From Alistipes sp. (GTDB taxonomy: Bacteria; Bacteroidota; Bacteroidia; Bacteroidales; Rikenellaceae), in assembly GCA_017463615.1 (NCBI GenBank), contig JAFTOU010000018.1, forward strand, positions 124,001 through 188,000: 64,000 bases of DNA, written 5' to 3'. Positions 6,412 to 60,653 of the stretch are shown piece after piece; positions within the stretch are counted from its first letter, which is position 1, and the number at the start of each line of letters is the position of its first letter. The translations under genes and the position numbers were made by a program. The notes beneath the pieces are model-generated. The model was not told the DNA's origin. It was given only the letters and a program-made list of their open reading frames with translations, and ran no database searches.

Positions 6412-6471
6412 GTAAAAATTTTTGACTATTAGCTTTTAGCCATTGGCCATTATTTTTTAGAGGTATTTTTT

Positions 6472-6547
6472 ATTAAGGGTTACTAATGGTCGCTGGCGCG
6501 ACGCTACGCAGTACATTCGCGCTACCCTTAATAACCCTTAATCCTCC
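6472..6547. repeat. Inverted repeat with ATTAAGGGT/ACCCTTAAT arms
   Basis: This lies in the 349-nt gap between the HU-like gene and the GH27 gene. ATTAAGGGTTA at 6472 is mirrored by TACCCTTAAT ending at 6532, with an inner GCGCGA/TCGCGC pairing. Two further CCTTAAT-type direct repeats follow to about 6560. A 13-nt match (ATTAAGGGTTACT) recurs at 10267. It may be a terminator or a decayed repeat. Confidence 0.5.
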
Positions 6548-6604
6548 TTAATAACCTTTAATATATCGCCATCCGGCTTACACCGTCGGTTATTCCTTGC
6601 ACCG

Positions 6605-6731
6605 ATTTTATCGTCAGAGTGCGCCAGATACGGTATATCGTGAAAAATCCCCGGATGGGTTGTACTTGAGCGTACTACCCATTCGGGGATTTGAGGGATG
6701 TGCCGTAGGTGGCACACTATCACGATAAAAT
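6605..6731. repeat. Palindromic structured element, copy 1 (subfamily A)
   Basis: 127 bp. The outer arms ATTTTATCGTCA and ...TATCACGATAAAAT are inverted repeats. A 21-bp inner hairpin (6645-6665 with 6672-6692) has one G-U pair and one mismatch and is tipped by GTAC-TTGAGC-GTAC. A small extra hairpin GTGCC/GGCAC lies at 6701-6714. The right end touches the stop codon of the minus-strand alpha-galactosidase gene. Three more copies occur at 32486, 46188 and 59757. Confidence 0.85.
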
Positions 6732-8402
6732 TTACTTTTTGTCGCTGATGTAACGAACCTTCTCAGTATACTGCTTGTCGGTATTACCTGGAGAGACGCG
6801 GACGAGGACTACGCCGTGAGCGGGAACGAGGGCGGTGAAGCGCTCGCCACGGTCATCGGTAAGAGTGCCGACATCCTTCTGACGCCAGAGGTCGCGCACA
6901 GTACGGTTGCCGTCGTAGAGACCGAGCATACGAGGGTTGATGCTGATATTTGCAGCCTTCTCGCCGCGGTTGAACATACCTACAGCCAGTGAGCCATCCT
7001 CAAGGTGCTTAACATAGATAACCTGGCTGCCATCCTTCTTACGCCATACTGGCACTGCGTGGTAGCCGAGTGGGTCCTGATTGACATCAATAACCTCGTC
7101 GTTAGTGAGCAATGAGAGGGTGAACTCGTCCAGGCGAGCCATATCGCAGCCGATAAGCAGCGGCGATGCGAAGAGTGCCCAGAGGCTCATGTGTGTATAC
7201 TGCTCGTCAGCGGTGAGCTTTGTATAGTGGAGCTTTGGACCCCAGCCTACAAGACCTACAACAAGCATATCTGCATCTGGCCAAGCGCCTGGGCGGGTGA
7301 ATGGAATCCACTTATCCTGCGAGAAGCCGATAGAGTTGATACTCTTCCAAGTGTCGCGGATATCGCCAGTAGTACGCCAGCACTCTGCATTCTCCATAAA
7401 GAATGGAGCGTCAGCAAGTGGAGCTGAGTTAGAGAGCGAGAGGACGATATCGCGCTTTACAGAGCGAAGTGCGTCAAACATCTCCTTGGTGTGGAAGCGG
7501 GTATTTGGGTTCCAGTCGTACTTTACATAGTCAATCTCCCAGTCGGCAAACTGCTTAACATCAGCCTCAACGAAAGAGTACTTGCCGTGGATATAGTACT
7601 CCTTACGGTCCTGCCAGTAGTTAGCATCTGGACCCTTCTTCTGGTAGCGGTAGTGCTCATTATGCAGACCATCCTTAATCCACTGGTTTACACCATCTGG
7701 GTTATCAGAGTAGCTACCGATATGTGCAGCGTATGTACCAACCCAAGGCACAGTGTAGATACCCAGCTTAAGACCCATATCGTGCACCTCACGGGTCAGA
7801 GCCTTCATATCTGGGAACTTGGTGTTAGGCTGGATAGCGTTGTACTTACCGCCACGCTGACCCTGCCAGCCATCGTCAATATTGATGTAAGACCAACCGT
7901 GGTTAATAAGGCCAGACTCTACCATTGCGCGTGCAGATGAGAGCACCTGCTCCTGTGTTACATCACGAGCCCAGCAGTTCCAAGAGTTCCAACCCATAGG
8001 AGGTGTGAGGGCGAGCTTATCGCCAACTACGATACGAAGCTCACGCTCGTAGCTACCCTTATCGTTAGTAGCCTTGAGCATTACATGGTATGTACCCTCC
8101 TTCTTCATAGTACCGGTAATGCGACCAGTCTTAGAGTCCAGCTTCAGACCCTTTGGAAGGTTCTTTGCCTCAAAGGTCATTGGGCGGTCACCAGTAGCTG
8201 CGATAGTATAGAGGCATGGAGAGCCTGGACGCAGACCGAAGACCTTAGCGCCATTGATGCGCGGTGTTGCCGCAGGTTTTGGAGTAAGAATGTAAGCCGA
8301 AAGGTCGGGAATCTCAACCTCAGCTGGCTGCTGTGCTGCTACGGGCAGAGTATTTACTGCCATAGCAAAAGCAAGTAATGCAATAACTTTCTTCATATTC
8401 AT
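6732..8402 (-). CDS. Exported alpha-galactosidase, GH27 family
   Basis: 556 residues from ATG 8402 (MNMKK...). A GTG nine codons upstream overlaps the preceding gene, and ATG 8396 is an alternative. Signal peptide, then a ~90-residue putative Ig-like domain (residues ~45-135, with KNLPKGLKLDSKTGRITG). The GH27 TIM barrel starts at LTPPMGWNSWNCW. The catalytic nucleophile Asp is in YVKYDWN and the acid/base Asp in GAWPDADML. The C-terminal beta domain ends near VVLVRVSP. It should release terminal alpha-galactose from glycans in the periplasm or at the surface. It is the last gene of the SusCD locus and immediately precedes repeat copy 1. Confidence 0.93.
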   Translation of the reverse strand: MNMKKVIALLAFAMAVNTLPVAAQQPAEVEIPDLSAYILTPKPAATPRINGAKVFGLRPGSPCLYTIAATGDRPMTFEAKNLPKGLKLDSKTGRITGTMKKEGTYHVMLKATNDKGSYERELRIVVGDKLALTPPMGWNSWNCWARDVTQEQVLSSARAMVESGLINHGWSYINIDDGWQGQRGGKYNAIQPNTKFPDMKALTREVHDMGLKLGIYTVPWVGTYAAHIGSYSDNPDGVNQWIKDGLHNEHYRYQKKGPDANYWQDRKEYYIHGKYSFVEADVKQFADWEIDYVKYDWNPNTRFHTKEMFDALRSVKRDIVLSLSNSAPLADAPFFMENAECWRTTGDIRDTWKSINSIGFSQDKWIPFTRPGAWPDADMLVVGLVGWGPKLHYTKLTADEQYTHMSLWALFASPLLIGCDMARLDEFTLSLLTNDEVIDVNQDPLGYHAVPVWRKKDGSQVIYVKHLEDGSLAVGMFNRGEKAANISINPRMLGLYDGNRTVRDLWRQKDVGTLTDDRGERFTALVPAHGVVLVRVSPGNTDKQYTEKVRYISDKK

Positions 8403-8422
8403 AATAGATTTAGTTTCTGTTT

Positions 8423-10192
8423 CTACCACTCGTTCTCAGAGAGTGAGAGCGTGCTTGCAGCTACCTCCTCTTGAGTAACGAAGTCTCCCCAAACATTATT
8501 GTAGTCTGCAGTAAGCTCTGAGCACATCATAGCCTCACGCTTACCGCTCTTATCTACGGCTCGGATAGTAAATGGCGCCGTTGGGTCTGCGAGCTTGCCC
8601 TTATAGAGGTGAGTAGTATCGCCTCGGTAGCTCTCGTTGGTTGTGCAGTAGACCTCCATATACCAGTAGGCCACCCACCAGTCGCGGTCGGAGAGCTTCT
8701 CCATAGTACAAACCTGCTTGCCATTCTGCCACAGAGTCACATCCCAGCTGCCATGCTCAATATTCCAGATATTGGCGATAATATAGCCGTCAAGACCCCA
8801 TGTATAGTCCGAGAAGGTGTGCTTCTTGGATGGCTGGTTCTTGCTAAAGCGAGGGTCGTAGTAGTGCTGACCACCGTCGTATGCACGAATCTGGACATCG
8901 CTGCTGCAACCTGTACCCTTGTAGTACCAGTTCTTGATGGTGTTGCCCTCAATCTCGTAGACGCCATAACCATTTGGTGTGCCGTCTACATTGGTTGTAG
9001 AGTGCCACATACCACCGCAAACTGCACCGTGGATATGCTCGTAAATCCTCTTACCATTGACCGTATGGATATAGTTGCGGTTACGGTGCGTATGACCAAT
9101 CATCAGGTGCGCCTCCTTATACTCCGACAACAGGTTGAGCACATCCTTGCGATAGCGTGCATCGGAGTGGTTTCCACCCTTACCATCGCGGAACGGGATG
9201 TGCAGACAGAGGAGAACCATCTTATCCTTTGGCACATAGGACAAGTCCTGCTTGAGCCACTCAAGCTGCCAGTCAAAGAAGCCTGCAGCATACTCATAGT
9301 CGCCATCTGGTGGAGTCTCGCCATGCAGGGCGTTATCCATAACAACGATATGGGTGTCGCTGCGGTCAAAGGAGTAGTTCTGCGGGCCAAAATACTTCTG
9401 GAAGTTCTCAACACTCTTCCAGAATGTAGTCACCTGGCTATGGTCGTTAGGCGAAAACTCGTTCAGGTGGTCGTGGTTACCCATACACTGCATAAAGACC
9501 ATACTACGGTTTGACATCGCCTGCTTGACCTTTGTCCACATCACAGATGCGTTCTTATTGGTCACATCGCCCAGCGTTACGCCGTATGGATTTACAAGCG
9601 AAGGGGCAAGAGCGTCAATATCGGGCATAGTCTCCTCGCGGAAACGGACAACATCCTCATTATCGTTCACCTGAATATCCGCCAAGGTGAGCAGCGTAAA
9701 TGTGCTCTCCTTGCCACCTGGGAGCAGATTGAGGGTGAAGTCGTGGCGGAACTTTTCATCCTTGGCGATAACAAATCGCTTGTAGAATGCTGGATGGTTA
9801 CCATTATCCACAGGAATCTGATACTGGGCAGGGATGCTCATATATACCATCGTAGAGTTCTCGTCGCGGACAATCTGATAGACACCATTCTGGTCGGTCT
9901 GTACGCAGACAAAGCCGTCGCTGACAACGATATCCTGGATACCCTCGCCACTCTGACCGTCTGTAACAACGCCATAGAGAGTGGTTGCGCTATCTATCAC
10001 CGTACCATTGACAACAACCTGCTCTGGCTGGCTCGGCTCGCCATTGTCGTCGCCCTTATTATCCTCTCCGTTATCCTTGCCTTCATCCGTACCCTGCTCG
10101 TTATCGGGCGGAGTTGGAGATGGCAACTCCTCGCCACAACCCCACAGGGTGATGGTGCAGAGGAGAGTGAGTATGATAAGTACCTTTTTCAT
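8423..10192 (-). CDS. Calcineurin-like metallophosphoesterase lipoprotein
   Basis: 589 residues. The lipoprotein signal ends in LWGC (Cys about residue 19), followed by an Asp/Glu/Gly/Asn-rich linker (about 22-60) that probably spaces it from the membrane. An N-terminal beta domain (VVTDGQSGEGIQDIVVSDG) comes before the phosphoesterase core with LADIQ, TLGDV, GNHD, LHIP and GHTH motifs. The usual D-x-H is D-I-Q here, as in this subfamily. A C-terminal beta domain (about 430-575) matches the family's C-terminal module. The substrate is unknown. Placement between the glycan-binding lipoprotein and GH27 suggests removal of a phosphate or phosphodiester from the glycan, which is inference. Confidence 0.85.
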   Translation of the reverse strand: MKKVLIILTLLCTITLWGCGEELPSPTPPDNEQGTDEGKDNGEDNKGDDNGEPSQPEQVVVNGTVIDSATTLYGVVTDGQSGEGIQDIVVSDGFVCVQTDQNGVYQIVRDENSTMVYMSIPAQYQIPVDNGNHPAFYKRFVIAKDEKFRHDFTLNLLPGGKESTFTLLTLADIQVNDNEDVVRFREETMPDIDALAPSLVNPYGVTLGDVTNKNASVMWTKVKQAMSNRSMVFMQCMGNHDHLNEFSPNDHSQVTTFWKSVENFQKYFGPQNYSFDRSDTHIVVMDNALHGETPPDGDYEYAAGFFDWQLEWLKQDLSYVPKDKMVLLCLHIPFRDGKGGNHSDARYRKDVLNLLSEYKEAHLMIGHTHRNRNYIHTVNGKRIYEHIHGAVCGGMWHSTTNVDGTPNGYGVYEIEGNTIKNWYYKGTGCSSDVQIRAYDGGQHYYDPRFSKNQPSKKHTFSDYTWGLDGYIIANIWNIEHGSWDVTLWQNGKQVCTMEKLSDRDWWVAYWYMEVYCTTNESYRGDTTHLYKGKLADPTAPFTIRAVDKSGKREAMMCSELTADYNNVWGDFVTQEEVAASTLSLSENEW

Positions 10193-31848: not shown

Positions 31849-32470
31849 CAGACTTAAACACTACATAGAGCGGGAGATTCTTCCGCTCTATGCCTTTTTT
31901 GATAAGGCGCACAATGGCGACCACGCCGAGCAGGTTATCGCCCGCAGCCTGACCCTTGCCGAGCACTACGATGTGGATATTGATATGGTCTACACCATCG
32001 CCGCCTACCACGATATAGGACTGCAGGCGGGTCGCGAAAGACACCATATAGTCTCGGGCGAGCTGCTTGCTGCCGATGCGGTGCTTAGGGAGTTTTTTAC
32101 AGAGGAGCAGATAGTAACTATGCGCGAGGCTGTGGAGGACCATCGCGCCTCGGCAAAGAGTGAGCCGCGCACTATCTATGGCCGTATCGTAGCAGAGGCA
32201 GATAGGTGCATTGAGCCGCTGACGGTCATCCGTCGCACCGTGCAGTTCGGACTTGCCCACTACCCTACGCTGAGCACTGAGGAGCACTTTGCCCGCTGCT
32301 GCCACCACCTTGACGAGAAGTACGGCGAGGGTGGCTACCTCAAGCTCTGGATACCCCACTCCGACAACGCCCTGCGCTTAGCCGAGCTCCGCGCCATTGC
32401 CGCCGACAGAGAGCAGCTAAGAGCGATATTTGATACGATTTTTGCAGAAGAAAATATCGCAGAAGAGTAA
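31841..32470 (+). CDS. HD-domain phosphohydrolase
   Basis: 209 residues from ATG 31841, which overlaps the preceding stop (codons further upstream lie inside the PCMD gene). HD metal-binding motifs: NGDHAEQVIARS (first His), YHDIG (His-Asp pair), later VEDHR and AEADR. The size and motif spacing fit small HD hydrolases acting on nucleotides or phosphoesters in the cytoplasm. No signal peptide. It is last on this transcript and is followed by repeat copy 3. Substrate unknown. Confidence 0.8.
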   Translation: MNSRLKHYIEREILPLYAFFDKAHNGDHAEQVIARSLTLAEHYDVDIDMVYTIAAYHDIGLQAGRERHHIVSGELLAADAVLREFFTEEQIVTMREAVEDHRASAKSEPRTIYGRIVAEADRCIEPLTVIRRTVQFGLAHYPTLSTEEHFARCCHHLDEKYGEGGYLKLWIPHSDNALRLAELRAIAADREQLRAIFDTIFAEENIAEE

Positions 32471-32485
32471 TTAACGCACCACCCT

Positions 32486-32612
32486 ATTGGCGTCAGAAGG
32501 GGTTAGATGCCACGCTCGGCGAAAAATCCCAACGATGGATAGTACTAAAGCGTACAGCCATTGTTGGGATTTTTCGTTAGCGGAAGCAGGTATGCCCCTT
32601 ATCACGCCAAAT
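32486..32612. repeat. Palindromic structured element, copy 3 (subfamily B)
   Basis: 127 bp. Outer arms ATTGGCGTCAGAAGGGG and CCCCTTATCACGCCAAAT are inverted repeats. The inner hairpin (32520-32545 with 32552-32576) is a near-perfect ~25-bp stem tipped by GTAC-TAAAGC-GTAC. Flanking segments GGTTAGATGC, ACGCTCGGC, GTTAGCGGAAGCAGG are shared with copy 4. It sits between the convergent HD and aroG genes. Confidence 0.85.
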
Positions 32613-32617
32613 CAATG

Positions 32618-32650
32618 AAAAAAGTGAGCAGTAATTTACTGCTCACTTTT
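32618..32650 (-). terminator. Terminator whose 5' arm is the end of the aroG coding sequence
   Basis: Perfect 15-bp inverted repeat (32620-32634 with 32636-32650). On the minus strand the first arm encodes the last four codons plus stop of the DAHP synthase gene, and the stem is followed by a T-run. Confidence 0.85.
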
Positions 32651-33697
32651 CATTATATGGTTCTGTTTGTTGATACTCTCAATGTGAATCGCCTCTAAAA
32701 GTATATTGAGAAAATCGTGACTCAGGCCGAGCTCCTCGGAGCGGGCGAGGACGCGCTCAACGACTTGGTTCCAGCGGGAAGATTGGAGAATCATCACATT
32801 ATTCTCGCGCTTGATGCGGCCGATACCTTCGGCAGCCTCCATACGGCGGGAGAGGAGTTTGAGAATCTCGTCATCAAGGCGGTCAATAACGCCACGAAGC
32901 TCGTCAAGCGATGTCTGGTAAGCGACGGAGTCTGACCCCTCATTACGCCAAACGATGCTATCCAGCAGCGTTACAAGGTCGGCAGGGGTAACCTGTTGCT
33001 TAGCGTCCGACCACGCTGCATCCGGGGTGATATGGCTCTCAACCATAATACCATTAAAATTCAAGTCGGCAGCCTGCTGTGACACCTCCTGCAGATACTC
33101 TCTATTGCCGCAGATATGCGATGGGTCGCAGAAGATTGGCAGCTCAGGCAGGCGCTTCTTAATCTCCAGAGCCAGATGCCACATAGGTGTATTGCGGTAC
33201 TGCGACGAGCCATAGCCCGAGAATCCGCGGTGGATAAGACCCAGATTCTTGACATTACACTTAGCAAAGCGCTCCACAGCGCCGTTCCACAGCTCCACAT
33301 CGGCATTCATAGGGTTTTTAATCAACACGGGGGCATCCGTACCACGCAGAGACTCGGCAATCTCCTGCACACTAAATGGGTTTGAGGTTGTGCGGGCGCC
33401 AATCCAGAACATATCAATACCGAAAGCCAGAGCGCTCTCCACATGCTTGGCATTTGCCACCTCAATAGCCACGGGCAGACCCGTTGTCTTCTTCACCTCC
33501 ACAAGCCACGGCAGTGCGGGTATACCCATACCCTCAAAGCCTCCCGGCTTGGTACGCGGCTTCCACACTCCTGCGCGGAAAATATCTACCTTGCCCGACT
33601 GTGCGAGCTCCTGTGCGGTCTGGAGGGTCTGCTCTACGGTCTCGGCAGAGCAAGGGCCTGCTATAATCAACGGTTTCTTTGAGTTCAAGTCTATCAT
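32636..33697 (-). CDS. Bifunctional DAHP synthase / chorismate mutase
   Basis: 353 residues. Residues 1-~250 form a type I, KDO8P-synthase-like DAHP synthase (LIIAGPCSAET, RAGVWKPRTKPGGFEG, LIKNPMNAD, FCDPSHICG). Residues ~262-345 form an AroQ-type chorismate mutase (LDELRGVIDRLDDEILKLLSRRM, AEGIGRIKRE). It catalyses the first step of the shikimate pathway and the branch step to prephenate. The fused mutase also acts as a feedback sensor in related proteins. It is the last gene of the Phe/Tyr operon, 6 nt after tyrA, and ends in its own terminator. Confidence 0.95.
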   Translation of the reverse strand: MIDLNSKKPLIIAGPCSAETVEQTLQTAQELAQSGKVDIFRAGVWKPRTKPGGFEGMGIPALPWLVEVKKTTGLPVAIEVANAKHVESALAFGIDMFWIGARTTSNPFSVQEIAESLRGTDAPVLIKNPMNADVELWNGAVERFAKCNVKNLGLIHRGFSGYGSSQYRNTPMWHLALEIKKRLPELPIFCDPSHICGNREYLQEVSQQAADLNFNGIMVESHITPDAAWSDAKQQVTPADLVTLLDSIVWRNEGSDSVAYQTSLDELRGVIDRLDDEILKLLSRRMEAAEGIGRIKRENNVMILQSSRWNQVVERVLARSEELGLSHDFLNILLEAIHIESINKQNHIMKSEQ

Positions 33698-46187: not shown

Positions 46188-46313
46188 ATTTTGTCGTCAA
46201 AAGGTGGTAGTAGGTGTGCATTGTGAAAATAGACCGAATGGGTTGTACTAAGCGTACTACCCATTCAGTCTATTGAGGGATGTGCAGCTAATGCTGCCTT
46301 TTCACGATAAAAT
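46188..46313. repeat. Palindromic structured element, copy 2 (subfamily A)
   Basis: 126 bp. Outer arms ATTTTGTCGTCA and TTCACGATAAAAT. Inner 21-bp hairpin (46228-46248 with 46254-46274) tipped by GTAC-TAAGC-GTAC. Small right hairpin GCAGC-taat-GCTGC (46285-46296). It shares TTGAGGGATGTGC and an upstream TATYCCTYRCACC block with copy 1. Its right arm encodes the last residues of MetH (FIVKRQH and stop). Confidence 0.85.
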
Positions 46314-49300
46314 ATTTAGCAGATTTCGCTCCTATATACAACCCACAGACCGAAGATTGCGGATACATCGCGCCCGACTCGGTCAGAGATATGCCGACGG
46401 AGGCGAGGTTTAGCAGCCTATCAATATCAAATATTATCCGCTGGTCAGGCAGGCAGGAGTAGCCCACAGCGGGGCGGATACCGCGATATTTTGCGGCGAA
46501 AAGTTGCGGTATGGTAAGGCGATTTTCGGCTGCGAGAGCCTGCTCGCTACCACTCTCCCAGCAGTGTATCCAGCAGTTGCGCACAGAGCGGTGCATATAC
46601 TCGCTTGTAGCCTCAACAATTCGGTCGGCAAGGCTCTGGTATAGCAGCGCGTTATAGTCGTCACCATCAGCCTTAAAGCGCTCTATATCAGCCACAAGCG
46701 ACTCTGGAACGGTTGCGCAGAATAGACATATCTGGTCATCATACCCCTTCGGTGCAACAAAGTCGGCAAGTGCGAGCGCTACCCCATCCTCACCCGCGCT
46801 ACTCTGGCGTGGCGTAGGGATAGTGATACTCTGCCCCGTAGCGTCGGTGGCGCAAATTGCATCACCATCTGAATATGCGTGACAAGCCATAGCGCGACAG
46901 CGAATCTTCTGCCCCGCAATAGCATCAAGAATCTTCTCCGCCTCGGCACGCAGAGCGCGTCCCTGCTGCGTATGAGGGCTTGTGCGCCAAAAGGCGTGGA
47001 AGGCTCGCCAGTTGATATATTTGCGAACGGTGGCGACACTCTGACCCTCAGAGTGCCAGTAGATAAGTTCATCGCGGTGGACAATCTCACTACTCCAGTC
47101 CAACTCCAAGCGTGGCAAATCGTCGCTCTGCGCCGAAGGCTTACCCTCAAACTGCTCGCGCAATCGCTGCTGACTCTGCTTGAGTTCGGCGATAATCTGC
47201 TCGCCGTTCTCGCCCGCCAGCTGCAGCGCAAGGACTGGGTTTTGCGAGGCATCCTTGATATGGAACACCGCACCATCATAGAGCGGAGCAATCTTTACTG
47301 CCGTATGTAGTGCCGAGGTTGTTGCGCCACTGATAAAGAGCGGAACACTAACGCCCGCCTCGCGCAACTGCACTGCCGTAGCGCACATCTGCTCAAGCGA
47401 CGGGGTGATAAGTCCGCTAAGACCTATATAGTCCACCTTATGCTCTACCGCCGCAGCTACAATATCCTGCGGAGCGACCATAACGCCGAGATCAATAACC
47501 TCAAAGCCATTGCAGCGCAGAATTACCGCTGCTATATTCTTGCCAATATCGTGCACATCGCCCTTGACCGTAGCCACAAGGTAGCGACCTGCACTACGAC
47601 CGCTACTCTGCTGCTCAATATATGGTTGCAGGATAGATACAGCACGCTTCATCGTGCGGGCGGTCTTGACGACCTGTGGCAGGAACATCTTACCCTCGCC
47701 AAAGAGCTTTCCGACGGCAATCATACCCTCCATAAGAGGCCCCTCAATAATCGCAGCCGCCGAAGGGTAGCAAGATAGAGCCTCACTCAATTCCTGCTCC
47801 AGAAAACTCTCATCGCCACGCTGCAGAGCATCGGCAAGGCGTCGCTCTACGGTAAGGGTTGCCCTATCTACGCTCTGCTCCGTAGCCACGCTCTGCTGCG
47901 CAAACTCCGAGGCAAGAGCCGTAAGGCGCTCGGCTGCATCGGCACGACGATTGAGGATAACATCTTCCAACGCCTCGCGCAGCTGCTGCGGAATATCCTC
48001 GTACATCACCGCCGTTGCAGGGTTGAGAATTGCCATATCCATACCCGCCCCAACGGCATAGTAGAGGAATACGGCGTGCATAGCCTCGCGCAGGTAGTTA
48101 TTACCCCTGAAGGCAAAGGAGAGGTTGCTTACACCGCCACTGACATGCGCCCCAGGTAGATTCTGGCGAATCCAGGCCGTAGCGCGGATAAAGTCGCGGG
48201 CGTAGTCGTTATGCTCGGCAATACCCGTAGCGACAGTAAGTATATTTGGGTCAAAGATTATATCGCGCGCATCAAAGCCAACGCACTCTGTAAGCAGACG
48301 GTAGGCGCGGGCGCAAATCTCAATCTTACGCTCATAGGTGGTCGCCTGACCCTGCTCGTCAAAGGCCATAACCACAACCGCAGCGCCAAAACTCTTGACT
48401 ACCCTCGCCCTCTGAATGAAGGTCTGCTCGCCCTCCTTGAGCGAGAGGGAGTTTACAATAGCCTTGCCCTGTATGGTCTTGAGTGCCGCCGTGATAACAT
48501 CAAAGTCAGACGAGTCTATCATCCACGGCACACGCGCCACATCGGGGTCGGAGGCCATAATATTGAGGAACTCGGTCATCTGACTCTTGGCATCCAGCAT
48601 AGCGTCGTCCATATTGACATCCAGCACCATAGCCCCATCCTCAACCTGACGGCGTGCAATAGCGAGTGCCTCGCCGTAGTTGCGCTCCCCTATCAGGCGG
48701 AGGAACTTACGACTACCCGCCACATTACACCTCTCGCCCACATTAACAAAGGCGCCATTGGCATCAAAGGCCTCCAAGCCCGCAAGCCACGCCGTATCCT
48801 TTGCGCTCCTTATGCGCGGAGGTATACCCTCCACAGCCTGAGCTATGGCGCGTATATGGTCGGGCGTAGAGCCACAACAGCCACCCACGATATTTACCAT
48901 CCCGCGCTGAGCAAAGCGAGCAACGGCCTGAGCCATAAGTTCCGGAGTTTGGCTATACTCGCCCATAGCATTTGGCAGACCCGCATTTGGGTAGGCACTG
49001 ATGTAGTATGGCGAGATATCCGACAGCGTTCTGAGGAATGGCTCCATCTGCGTAGCGCCAAACGAGCAGTTAAGACCTACTGCCAGCAGCTCAAAGTGAG
49101 ATACTGAGGCTACGACAGCCTCTAAGGTCTGACCCGAGAGGGTTCTGCCCGCAGCATCGGCAACGGTTATAGATAGCACCACAGGCAGCTGCACACCGCG
49201 ACTGCTAAAGACGCTCTGCGCTGCCATAAGTGCAGCCTTAGCATTAAGGGTATCAAAGACGGTCTCCACAAGTAGCATATCTACCCCACCCGCCACAAGG

Positions 49301-49794
49301 GCATCAATCTGCTCTATATATGCGTCGTAAAGGGTATCAAAATCTATCTCGCGCAGAGCGGGATTCTCCACATCGGGCGACATAGAGAGGGTCTTACCCG
49401 TAGGGCCTACAGAGCCAGCCACAAAGCGAGGGTGGTCGGGCGTAAGGGCATTCATACGCTCCACCTCGGCGCGAGCAAGCTCTGCAGCGGCACGATTTAG
49501 GCGAGTGATAAGCCCCTGAGTGCCATACTCCGCCTGAGATATGCGCTGACTATTGAATGTGCAGGTCTCAATAATATCCGCGCCCGCCTCAAGGTAGCTG
49601 CGGTGAATTGCACCGATAACATCGGGGCGCGTGAGTACTAGTATATCGTTATTACCCTCTAACTGCTGATTATGGCGTGCAAACTCAGCACCGCGAAAGT
49701 CCGCCTCCGAGAGCCCATAGCGCTGAATCATCGTACCCATAGCGCCATCCAGCACCATGATACGCTGCTTTAGTATTTCCTCAAGACGACCCAT
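46288..49794 (-). CDS. metH: Cobalamin-dependent methionine synthase, apparently C-terminally shortened
   Basis: 1168 residues. The homocysteine domain (1-~320) has Zn ligands in GLNCSFG and GGCCGSTP. The pterin/methyl-folate domain starts at FVNVGERCNVAGSRKFLRLI. The cobalamin cap and Rossmann domain (~640-870) contain the DVHDIGKN motif whose His ligates B12. The AdoMet reactivation domain contains RPAVGYSCLPDQ and LTESGAMYPQSSVCGLY. Relatives continue 25-30 residues past the KYF-V strand (GKIG.DQ...YA); here the frame runs into repeat copy 2 and stops as FIVKRQH. It makes methionine from homocysteine and needs B12. It is coupled to metF by a one-base overlap. Confidence 0.92.
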   Translation of the reverse strand: MGRLEEILKQRIMVLDGAMGTMIQRYGLSEADFRGAEFARHNQQLEGNNDILVLTRPDVIGAIHRSYLEAGADIIETCTFNSQRISQAEYGTQGLITRLNRAAAELARAEVERMNALTPDHPRFVAGSVGPTGKTLSMSPDVENPALREIDFDTLYDAYIEQIDALVAGGVDMLLVETVFDTLNAKAALMAAQSVFSSRGVQLPVVLSITVADAAGRTLSGQTLEAVVASVSHFELLAVGLNCSFGATQMEPFLRTLSDISPYYISAYPNAGLPNAMGEYSQTPELMAQAVARFAQRGMVNIVGGCCGSTPDHIRAIAQAVEGIPPRIRSAKDTAWLAGLEAFDANGAFVNVGERCNVAGSRKFLRLIGERNYGEALAIARRQVEDGAMVLDVNMDDAMLDAKSQMTEFLNIMASDPDVARVPWMIDSSDFDVITAALKTIQGKAIVNSLSLKEGEQTFIQRARVVKSFGAAVVVMAFDEQGQATTYERKIEICARAYRLLTECVGFDARDIIFDPNILTVATGIAEHNDYARDFIRATAWIRQNLPGAHVSGGVSNLSFAFRGNNYLREAMHAVFLYYAVGAGMDMAILNPATAVMYEDIPQQLREALEDVILNRRADAAERLTALASEFAQQSVATEQSVDRATLTVERRLADALQRGDESFLEQELSEALSCYPSAAAIIEGPLMEGMIAVGKLFGEGKMFLPQVVKTARTMKRAVSILQPYIEQQSSGRSAGRYLVATVKGDVHDIGKNIAAVILRCNGFEVIDLGVMVAPQDIVAAAVEHKVDYIGLSGLITPSLEQMCATAVQLREAGVSVPLFISGATTSALHTAVKIAPLYDGAVFHIKDASQNPVLALQLAGENGEQIIAELKQSQQRLREQFEGKPSAQSDDLPRLELDWSSEIVHRDELIYWHSEGQSVATVRKYINWRAFHAFWRTSPHTQQGRALRAEAEKILDAIAGQKIRCRAMACHAYSDGDAICATDATGQSITIPTPRQSSAGEDGVALALADFVAPKGYDDQICLFCATVPESLVADIERFKADGDDYNALLYQSLADRIVEATSEYMHRSVRNCWIHCWESGSEQALAAENRLTIPQLFAAKYRGIRPAVGYSCLPDQRIIFDIDRLLNLASVGISLTESGAMYPQSSVCGLYIGAKSAKYFIVKRQH

Positions 49795-59756: not shown

Positions 59757-59886
59757 ATTTTAGCGTCAGAAGGGGTTAGATGCAACGCTCGGCATATAAA
59801 ACAGCGATGGGCTGTACTAAATCGTACTGCCCATTGCTGATTTTATATGTTAGCGGAAGCAGGTATGCCCCTTATCACGCTAAAAT
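59757..59886. repeat. Palindromic structured element, copy 4 (subfamily B)
   Basis: 130 bp. Outer arms ATTTTAGCGTCAGAAGGGG and CCCCTTATCACGCTAAAAT. Inner hairpin (59793-59817 with 59824-59849) is tipped by GTAC-TAAATC-GTAC. The non-stem segments are nearly identical to copy 3, but both stems differ in sequence and remain complementary. The stop codon and the last Phe codon of the minus-strand Cof-phosphatase gene lie in the right arm. Confidence 0.85.
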
Positions 59887-60653
59887 AACCCTAAGGTTGT
59901 GCAGGCGTTATAGATACCATCCTTGTCCACATCGGTGGTAATGTAGTCGGCGCGAGCTTTGAGGGCGGGGATGGCGTTGCCCATGGCGACCTTTGTCCAG
60001 CCGTCAACGAACATGGAGAGGTCGTTAGCGGCGTCGCCAAAGACGACCACATCGCTGCAATCGGCGCCGAAGTGGTCCATTATGCGGCGAATGCCGTAGG
60101 CTTTGTCGGATGGCTCAACGAAGAGGTACTCCTTATGAAATCGCCCCCACTGCACGCTCTTGAGGCTCTCAAGGGTATGCTCGGTAGGCTCATAGCAGGC
60201 GATGTAGGCCTTATAAATCTTGTCGTAGTTGTTGGGATCAAGTCCCTCAACCACCCGCGTAGCCATGTAGACATCGTGCGTGAACTCCTCAAAGCGACTG
60301 TCGGGTGCACTGCGAACTACGGTGTTATCCACCTGCAGCGCCCAAGGGATACCCTTCGCCTTGCACTCGTCAATCACACGCACCACGGACTGCTTATCAA
60401 GCGGCTTTATCTCCACCAGCTCGCCATTGATGGTTATGCCATAGCCGCCGTCGCTGACCATATTCTCAAAGCCGAGCTCCCGCATATAGTCTACCGCCAT
60501 CGCCTGCGAGCGCCCCGTGGCTATCGCCAGAAAATGGCCCGCCTCGCGCAGTCGCTGCAACGCCACCTTCGTAGAGTCCGGAATATACGTATTTCCATAC
60601 CCTCCCGCCGCCAGCGTGCCATCAATATCAAAAAACAGATACTTCCGCTTCAT
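59880..60653 (-). CDS. Cof-type HAD phosphatase
   Basis: 257 residues. HAD motif I FFDIDGTLA (nucleophile Asp), motif II ATGR, motif III Lys in PSDKAYGI, motif IV FGDAANDLSMF. A C2-type cap lies between II and III, as in Cof/YidA sugar-phosphate phosphatases. Cytoplasmic. The last residues (LF) and the stop codon come from repeat copy 4. Confidence 0.9.
   Translation of the reverse strand: MKRKYLFFDIDGTLAAGGYGNTYIPDSTKVALQRLREAGHFLAIATGRSQAMAVDYMRELGFENMVSDGGYGITINGELVEIKPLDKQSVVRVIDECKAKGIPWALQVDNTVVRSAPDSRFEEFTHDVYMATRVVEGLDPNNYDKIYKAYIACYEPTEHTLESLKSVQWGRFHKEYLFVEPSDKAYGIRRIMDHFGADCSDVVVFGDAANDLSMFVDGWTKVAMGNAIPALKARADYITTDVDKDGIYNACTTLGLF

Follow-up and report, generated by a model that had tools for sequence, protein, structure and literature searches.

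A dispersed, probably mobile hairpin repeat behind stop codons in Alistipes and related gut bacteria

Hairpin elements in the window

The window, a stretch of 64,000 nt from an Alistipes genome, carries four hairpin elements on its + strand, as a preliminary description had claimed, with stems at 6605-6731 (copy A), 32486-32612 (copy B), 46188-46313 (copy C), and 59757-59886 (copy D). The genes that adjoin them are ordinary ones, and those on the 3' side all lie on the - strand. Copy A, with its tip GTACTTGAGCGTAC at 6662-6675, ends directly before the stop codon (6732-6734) of an alpha-galactosidase-like gene (6732-8429). Copy B (tip at 32542-32555, covariance-model match at 32482-32613) follows a + strand open reading frame ending at 32470, the model match beginning 12 nt later, and precedes a gene for DAHP synthase/chorismate mutase (32636-33697) whose stop codon is 23 nt from the end of the model match; a terminator-like hairpin on the - strand (32619-32651) lies between the copy and that gene. 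The metH gene (46288-49794) enters the 3' arm of copy C (tip at 46245-46257) and has its stop codon inside it, at 46288-46290, and the stop codon (59880-59882) of a HAD hydrolase gene (59880-60653) likewise falls within the 3' end of copy D (tip at 59814-59827).

Each window copy folds on the + strand into a single hairpin of -65.8 to -77.6 kcal/mol (z scores of -9.9 to -10.7), a fold as good being found in 0 of 200 shuffles; in every one of the four, the - strand gives the poorer fold. The repeat unit measures about 130 nt, with model matches of 128 to 132 nt in the window. Read from the outside inward, the plan begins with the outer stem NNTTTNNCGT and an internal loop in which CAGA faces TAT; a second stem (about 9 bp) and a third region follow, and then come an inner stem of 11 to 15 bp and a tip of the form GTAC-loop-GTAC. 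The two subfamilies that had been distinguished among the window elements are real. The near-invariance ascribed to the tip GTACT..CGTAC stands for a conserved core and fails for the full motif, which is present in 89 of 124 own-genome copies; 20 more were classed as having another GTAC..GTAC tip (in at least one case because of a match lying elsewhere in the element), and neither form was assigned to 15. As 12 of these 15 read ATAC..GTAT when inspected by eye, the constant core is TAC..GTA.

Copy number, covariation, and the folded strand

A pattern built from the four window copies had 77 matches in the own genome (2.38 Mb), two of which (L013 and L014) are one copy, and a reversed control pattern had none. 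A covariance model built from 32 copies gave at least 150 matches in this genome, of which at least 146 span the entire model; these are lower bounds because 150 of 989 candidates were scored. The further copies anticipated in the preliminary description are thus present in number. Similar terminal sequences of contigs C28, C35, C53, and C65 may represent one chromosomal copy counted several times. Before alignment A2, the second match to the L013 copy (L014) and a copy cut by a contig end (L017) were removed, and overlong ends of L019 and L027 were trimmed.

The claim that the stems covary holds in the larger sample. Across 32 copies, the consensus comprises 40 pairs in five helices, 95.6% of cells are paired, and 26 of the 40 pairs show changes on both sides; two-sided cells number 222, compared with 65 in shuffles. 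The covariation score was 0.475, compared with 0.152 for shuffled alignments, and none of 500 shuffles attained any of the five covariation measures. Six slid versions of the structure all scored 0.096 or less, a control biased in favor of the structure because the latter was itself derived, as the RNAalifold consensus, from the alignment tested, which was made with MAFFT and not fitted to structure. Together, the fold shuffles and the covariation test rule out chance as the source of the fold.

Wobble pairs identify the strand that folds. In the paired columns of 109 copies aligned by fitting to the model, which are not independent of one another, there are 273 G·T against 35 A·C combinations, and 213 G·T when the richest column is left out. 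In another genome, G098 (35 copies), the counts are 114 and 12, and G·T predominates in 18 columns compared with 8 for A·C. If the constraint were symmetric between the strands, the two combinations would be equally frequent; the + strand is therefore the folded strand, which applies to RNA and single-stranded DNA alike. Selection on a folded strand, proposed earlier from the window copies, is thus supported by both the covariation and the wobble asymmetry.

Position at stop codons and polarity

Placement was counted for 124 own-genome copies on 1.23 Mb, after removal of a 50-nt remnant (C40:224620) and a contig-end fragment (L155:1-85) and with exclusion of three contig-edge copies; genes were taken as the longest open frames and are not curated. 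In 95 of the 121 copies, the 3'-side gene is opposite in orientation and has its stop codon within 30 nt, so that the element runs antisense to the gene whose stop codon it abuts. Of the 106 copies whose 3'-side gene is opposite in orientation, 34 would be expected to abut it if placed at random within the same gap, and 95 were observed to do so. Among 50 convergent regions, the 3'-side gene alone is abutted in 43, both genes in 3, neither in 4, and the other gene alone in none. Such placement also prevails among 38 single loci from 22 other genomes, including members of other genera (G044 and G053): the stop codon of an opposing frame of at least 60 codons lies within 40 nt in 32 loci and within 11 nt in 30, whereas the corresponding fractions for random positions in these loci are 0.21 and 0.07. 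In G098, 30 of 55 listed copies have an opposing stop codon nearby.

The elements are also polarized along the chromosome. The majority orientation of the respective contig is shared by 121 of the 124 own-genome copies, and the common orientation noted for the four window copies reflects this genome-wide polarity and is no accident of the window. One of the three minority-orientation copies nevertheless abuts a stop codon. In each of the ten contigs of which at least 37 kb was sampled, direction matches the sign of the GC skew, which in C65 is close to zero (0.005). The five smaller contigs comprise two in agreement with the rule (C23 and C39), one in conflict with it (C36), and two whose skew is close to zero (C21 and C58). 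The rule is followed by 49 of the 55 listed copies in G098 and is weaker in G038, where seven of nine sampled regions with copies and an absolute skew of at least 0.01 agree and two (L293 and L294) run against it. Taken with an excess of genes on one strand (372 to 210 in C40, C64, and the window), the GC skew suggests that the replication fork and the abutting gene run in the same direction.

Copies may also stand in arrays. All 18 neighbor pairs less than 150 nt apart among the 55 listed copies of G098 are on the same strand, and 34 of the 55 lie in such head-to-tail neighborhoods, whereas 14 of 124 own-genome copies have so close a neighbor. In the G098 arrays, as judged by eye, the stop codon is mostly adjoined by the unit nearest the gene.

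Outer pairs and exchange between copies

The ends were analyzed in 112 of the 124 copies, the other 12 having ends that could not be parsed or lying at an edge. Outward of TTT/AAA, the next two positions pair in 99 and then 87 of the 112 copies, and the following positions in 21, 12, 25, and 31. Where the second base outward is the last base of the stop codon, the far-end base matches it, being A for 13 of 13 TAA and 5 of 6 TGA codons and G for 7 of 8 TAG codons. As A is the commonest base at the far-end position in any case, it is the TAG cases that carry the weight of this match. Copying of outer stems from the target was considered and dropped, since the element-free gene ends inspected lack a TTTNNCG sequence.

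Some near-identical copies at separate loci have a common core and different outer pairs, differing only or mainly in the outer stem and by two-sided changes; between L096:9174 and L162:13015, all eight differences fall into four doubly changed outer pairs. Among copy pairs with up to 5 differences, one-sided changes number 8 and two-sided changes 3, and with 6 to 10 differences the numbers are 38 and 41. One-sided changes thus equal or exceed two-sided ones between the closest copies, so that stepwise compensation of the ordinary kind takes place as well. For mate columns at a distance of 80 nt, the mean shared information is 0.71, far above the values for columns of the same arm, whether these belong to the same stem (0.23) or to different stems (0.08, against 0.04 when shuffled), which argues that stems reassort between copies while the two halves of each pair are kept together.

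Occurrence in other genomes and at corresponding gene ends

Within the genus, 56 of 101 genomes have matches at an E value of 1e-13 or less and 45 have none at that threshold; among the better genomes, 16 of 38 have matches. Occurrence is thin in the Rikenellaceae (6 of 61 genomes, three of them with at least 30 matches, opposite-strand echoes included). In the order, 2 of 393 genomes have matches, and this near-emptiness is weak evidence because sensitivity was low, with 8 candidates scored per genome. One candidate from a different family within the order (G361, E value of 1.5e-8) was set aside, as it lacks TTTNNCGTCA ends by eye. Copies in G038, G044, and G053 have the same length and the TAC..GTA tip with different stems. 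Each of the two closely counted genomes holds about 100 copies or more. The tip pattern occurs in at least 104 stretches of named genomes, and among the 80 matches listed are Alistipes and Rikenellaceae metagenome-assembled genomes, with ruminant hindgut as the named sources, plus one Hydrogenedentota record.

Gene ends were compared with those of relatives in 41 gene-by-relative comparisons, of which five rest on matches below 50% identity that may be paralogs. The full element is present in 10, absent in 20, and represented by a tip-like match only in 11, the last being ambiguous as they go beyond what the search pattern can judge. A counterpart lacking the element was found for each of copies B, C, and D; the gene ends matching that of copy C lack the element in three genomes (G086, G065, and G155), and copy D is absent from the matching place in G087. 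Several of the element-free gene ends show, by eye, a plain terminator-like hairpin near the corresponding stop codon. The element-free counterparts, the way metH runs into copy C, and the separate hairpin beside copy B favor insertion over growth in place, as far as such comparisons may indicate. No recent insertion between strains was seen among the compared species, which are about 64 to 92% identical over matched stretches (about 80% over long ones).

Enzymes, carriers, and known families

GTAG REPs and RAYT REPtrons are hairpin repeats thought to be mobilized in trans, and the preliminary description had likened the window elements to this class. The comparison did not bear out: in the own genome and seven relatives, all drafts, with the own genome 93% complete and five of the relatives having element-model matches, no Y1_Tnp domain (PF01797) scored over the cut-off, the best signal being one weak match in G034 (E value of 0.098). 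Both are hairpin repeats, and they differ in length, 20 to 40 nt against about 130 nt here, and in that no Y1 transposase was found in these eight genomes. Integron attC sites are marked by conserved core sites and an integrase. A reverse transcriptase as the driver was rejected, RVT_1 being found in 5 of 10 copy-rich and 5 of 12 match-free genomes at the thresholds used. A DDE-transposase MITE was likewise rejected, as no direct target-site duplication was found in the 112 copies; direct repeats of 3 to 9 nt at their ends are no commoner than in shuffles. There was no match in plasmids with copy A as the query, in phages with copy B, or in viral contigs with two exact tip patterns. At the gathering score, Rfam identified only a tRNA in the window, and the best subthreshold hit for copy A was mir-362 with 21.9 of 80 bits. 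The elements resemble intrinsic terminators in their GC stem, the T-runs of many copies, and their position after genes, and differ from them in the multistem fold of 130 nt, the conserved tip, the fixed orientation, and the membership in a dispersed sequence family.

Among open-licence PMC papers, searched by title and the start of the abstract, no description of this hairpin-repeat family was found. Palindromic candidates from Bacteroidetes are reported in PMC8040213. A close comparison may be made with the CGTC-tagged REPs of Di Nocera et al. 2013 (PMC3733652). As described in the available excerpt of that paper, these are also dispersed, intergenic palindromes, often downstream of genes, reported in Bacteroidetes too, and without a dedicated transposase; they have a stem of 8 to 9 bp, a loop of 4 to 5 nt, an unpaired tag, and head-to-head dimers, whereas the present element has 40 pairs in five helices and forms head-to-tail arrays (18 of 18 close pairs in G098). 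Neither stop-codon abutment nor replication polarity appears for CGTC REPs in the same excerpt, and both are features of the present element. A CGTC does occur near one end here, yet its C, G, and T are paired (columns 10-12 with 127-129) in 31, 32, and 32 of 32 copies, and only the final C is unpaired. For the single-strand transposition of IS200/IS605, insertion is tied to the replication fork (PMC6006769, as excerpted). The orientation of the present element, which follows the GC-skew rule (more weakly in G038), is similar to the extent that replication direction can be read from skew; in contrast, no TnpA was found here, and the wobble-bearing strand is C-rich and thus would not be the lagging-strand template.

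Interpretation

The dispersed palindromes of bacteria are an old puzzle, for which this family is a large natural experiment. A hairpin repeat of about 130 bases, present in dozens to more than 100 copies in some Alistipes-related gut bacteria, mostly located right behind stop codons, apparently uniform in direction with respect to replication, and with arms that stay complementary as the sequence varies, suggests a mobile or RNA-like element. The family is probably a mobile dispersed palindromic repeat, and at roughly even odds we favor a non-autonomous mobile element, dependent on a putative replication-tied enzyme acting in trans, over a function as a 3'-end RNA. Recognition would be of the folded + strand, as RNA or single-stranded DNA, whose TAC..GTA tip is nearly invariant and whose internal loops are fixed. 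New copies would arise by insertion just behind the stop codons of genes running with the replication fork and in the orientation opposite to the gene, with replication direction as the putative cause of the polarity, and further copies would be added head to tail. The core of about 110 nt would be copied from other loci, and the outermost base pairs would be set at the locus.

The main rival, which we regard as less likely, is a functional 3'-end RNA element, that is, a terminator or mRNA 3'-protecting hairpin of the abutted gene, kept by selection and spread and homogenized by recombination. The abutted stop codons and the 10 of 41 comparisons in which both species have the element are consistent with such a role, as is the plain terminator-like hairpin that several element-free counterparts have near that position by eye. 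A T-run of at least 5 behind the inner stem, in the gene sense, is present in 70 of 109 copies, but it is nearly as frequent on the other strand (55 of 109), and the wobble pairs favor the strand antisense to the abutting gene. A terminator scan, in which totals were at chance and bulges were disallowed, was negative for copies A, B, and C and found a weak 5-pair site in copy D, and copy B is set apart from its gene by a distinct terminator-like hairpin. That of two convergent genes almost only one is served (the other alone in 0 of 50) likewise argues against a 3'-end role.

It could also be speculated that replication itself makes the palindromes, their arms being matched by fold-back (template-switch) synthesis and not by selection or an enzyme, hence the strand polarity. 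Along with that polarity, the outermost pair that tracks the stop codon and the two-sided outer-pair changes between some near-identical copies would fit; yet fold-back copying would erase the conserved asymmetric internal loops and the conserved G·T pair, and it leaves unexplained the copies at scores of unlinked gene ends, which makes this origin improbable. Ordinary REP/RAYT-type repeats of the GTAG or CGTC class with a lost or missed transposase are a very improbable identity for the family, as the palindromic, intergenic elements near gene 3' ends, with a CGTC near one end and a precedent for CGTC repeats without a dedicated transposase (PMC3733652, available excerpt), are about 130 and not 20 to 40 nt long, stand in head-to-tail arrays, pair three of the four CGTC bases that form an unpaired tag in the excerpted account, and come without any Y1 domain above the cut-off in eight draft genomes (own genome 93% complete).

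Four measurable rules hold for this family, namely, the stop codon, the GC-skew orientation, the folded strand, and the outer pair matched to the stop codon. They bring the question of how such repeats originate and move within reach of direct tests, and they point to a replication-coupled activity that has yet to be described. It is conceivable, and we put it forward tentatively, that this is a categorically new mobile hairpin: one placed exactly behind the stop codons of fork-codirectional genes, recognized through its folded strand and tip, with outermost pairs completed against the stop codon of the target and concentric stem "shells" traded between copies, and served by an enzyme outside the known transposase classes.

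Neighboring repeat modules and unusual copies

The 5' flank of copy A is a second palindromic repeat module (6471-6604, + strand) that reads ATTAAGGG ... CCCTTAAT ... TATATCGCC and then GCACC; a minority of other copies have flanks like it. The module also occurs at C64:260292-260580, and its ATTAAGGG..CCCTTAAT arms enclose GGTCGC..GCGACGC (6471-6570 in the window). For 20 of the 77 pattern-matched copies, the module's marker TACTAATGGTCG is found no more than 600 bp upstream; the marker is itself polarized, 18 to 2, in C40, C64, and the window. Two further modules are found upstream of copies in C40 and C64, CCCTTCCTCCTCGCGGCTCGGC, with an orientation of 20 to 1, and a TTAGCCATTGGC / TGCACCCTATAAACA palindrome.

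At five loci of G098 (L124:5841, L125:10894, L127:4043, L128:11268, and L137:9506), the element is embedded in a longer palindromic repeat, GAGGTTGAATAAAAAG..CTTTTTATTCAGCCTC, that measures about 265 bp and is very similar in at least four of them; those of L127 and L128 abut a TAA by eye. In the counterpart of copy A in G086 (L166:7689-7818), the inner hairpin seems inverted with respect to the arms outside it (GGCTGTACC..AGTACTATCC), as though the tip had been flipped. The 5' end motif TTTNNCGTCAGA recurs within 600 bp upstream of 18 of the 77 own-genome copies, and in 15 of these 18 it stands just 21 to 50 nt ahead of the full copy, as though an older element had been mostly lost or replaced.
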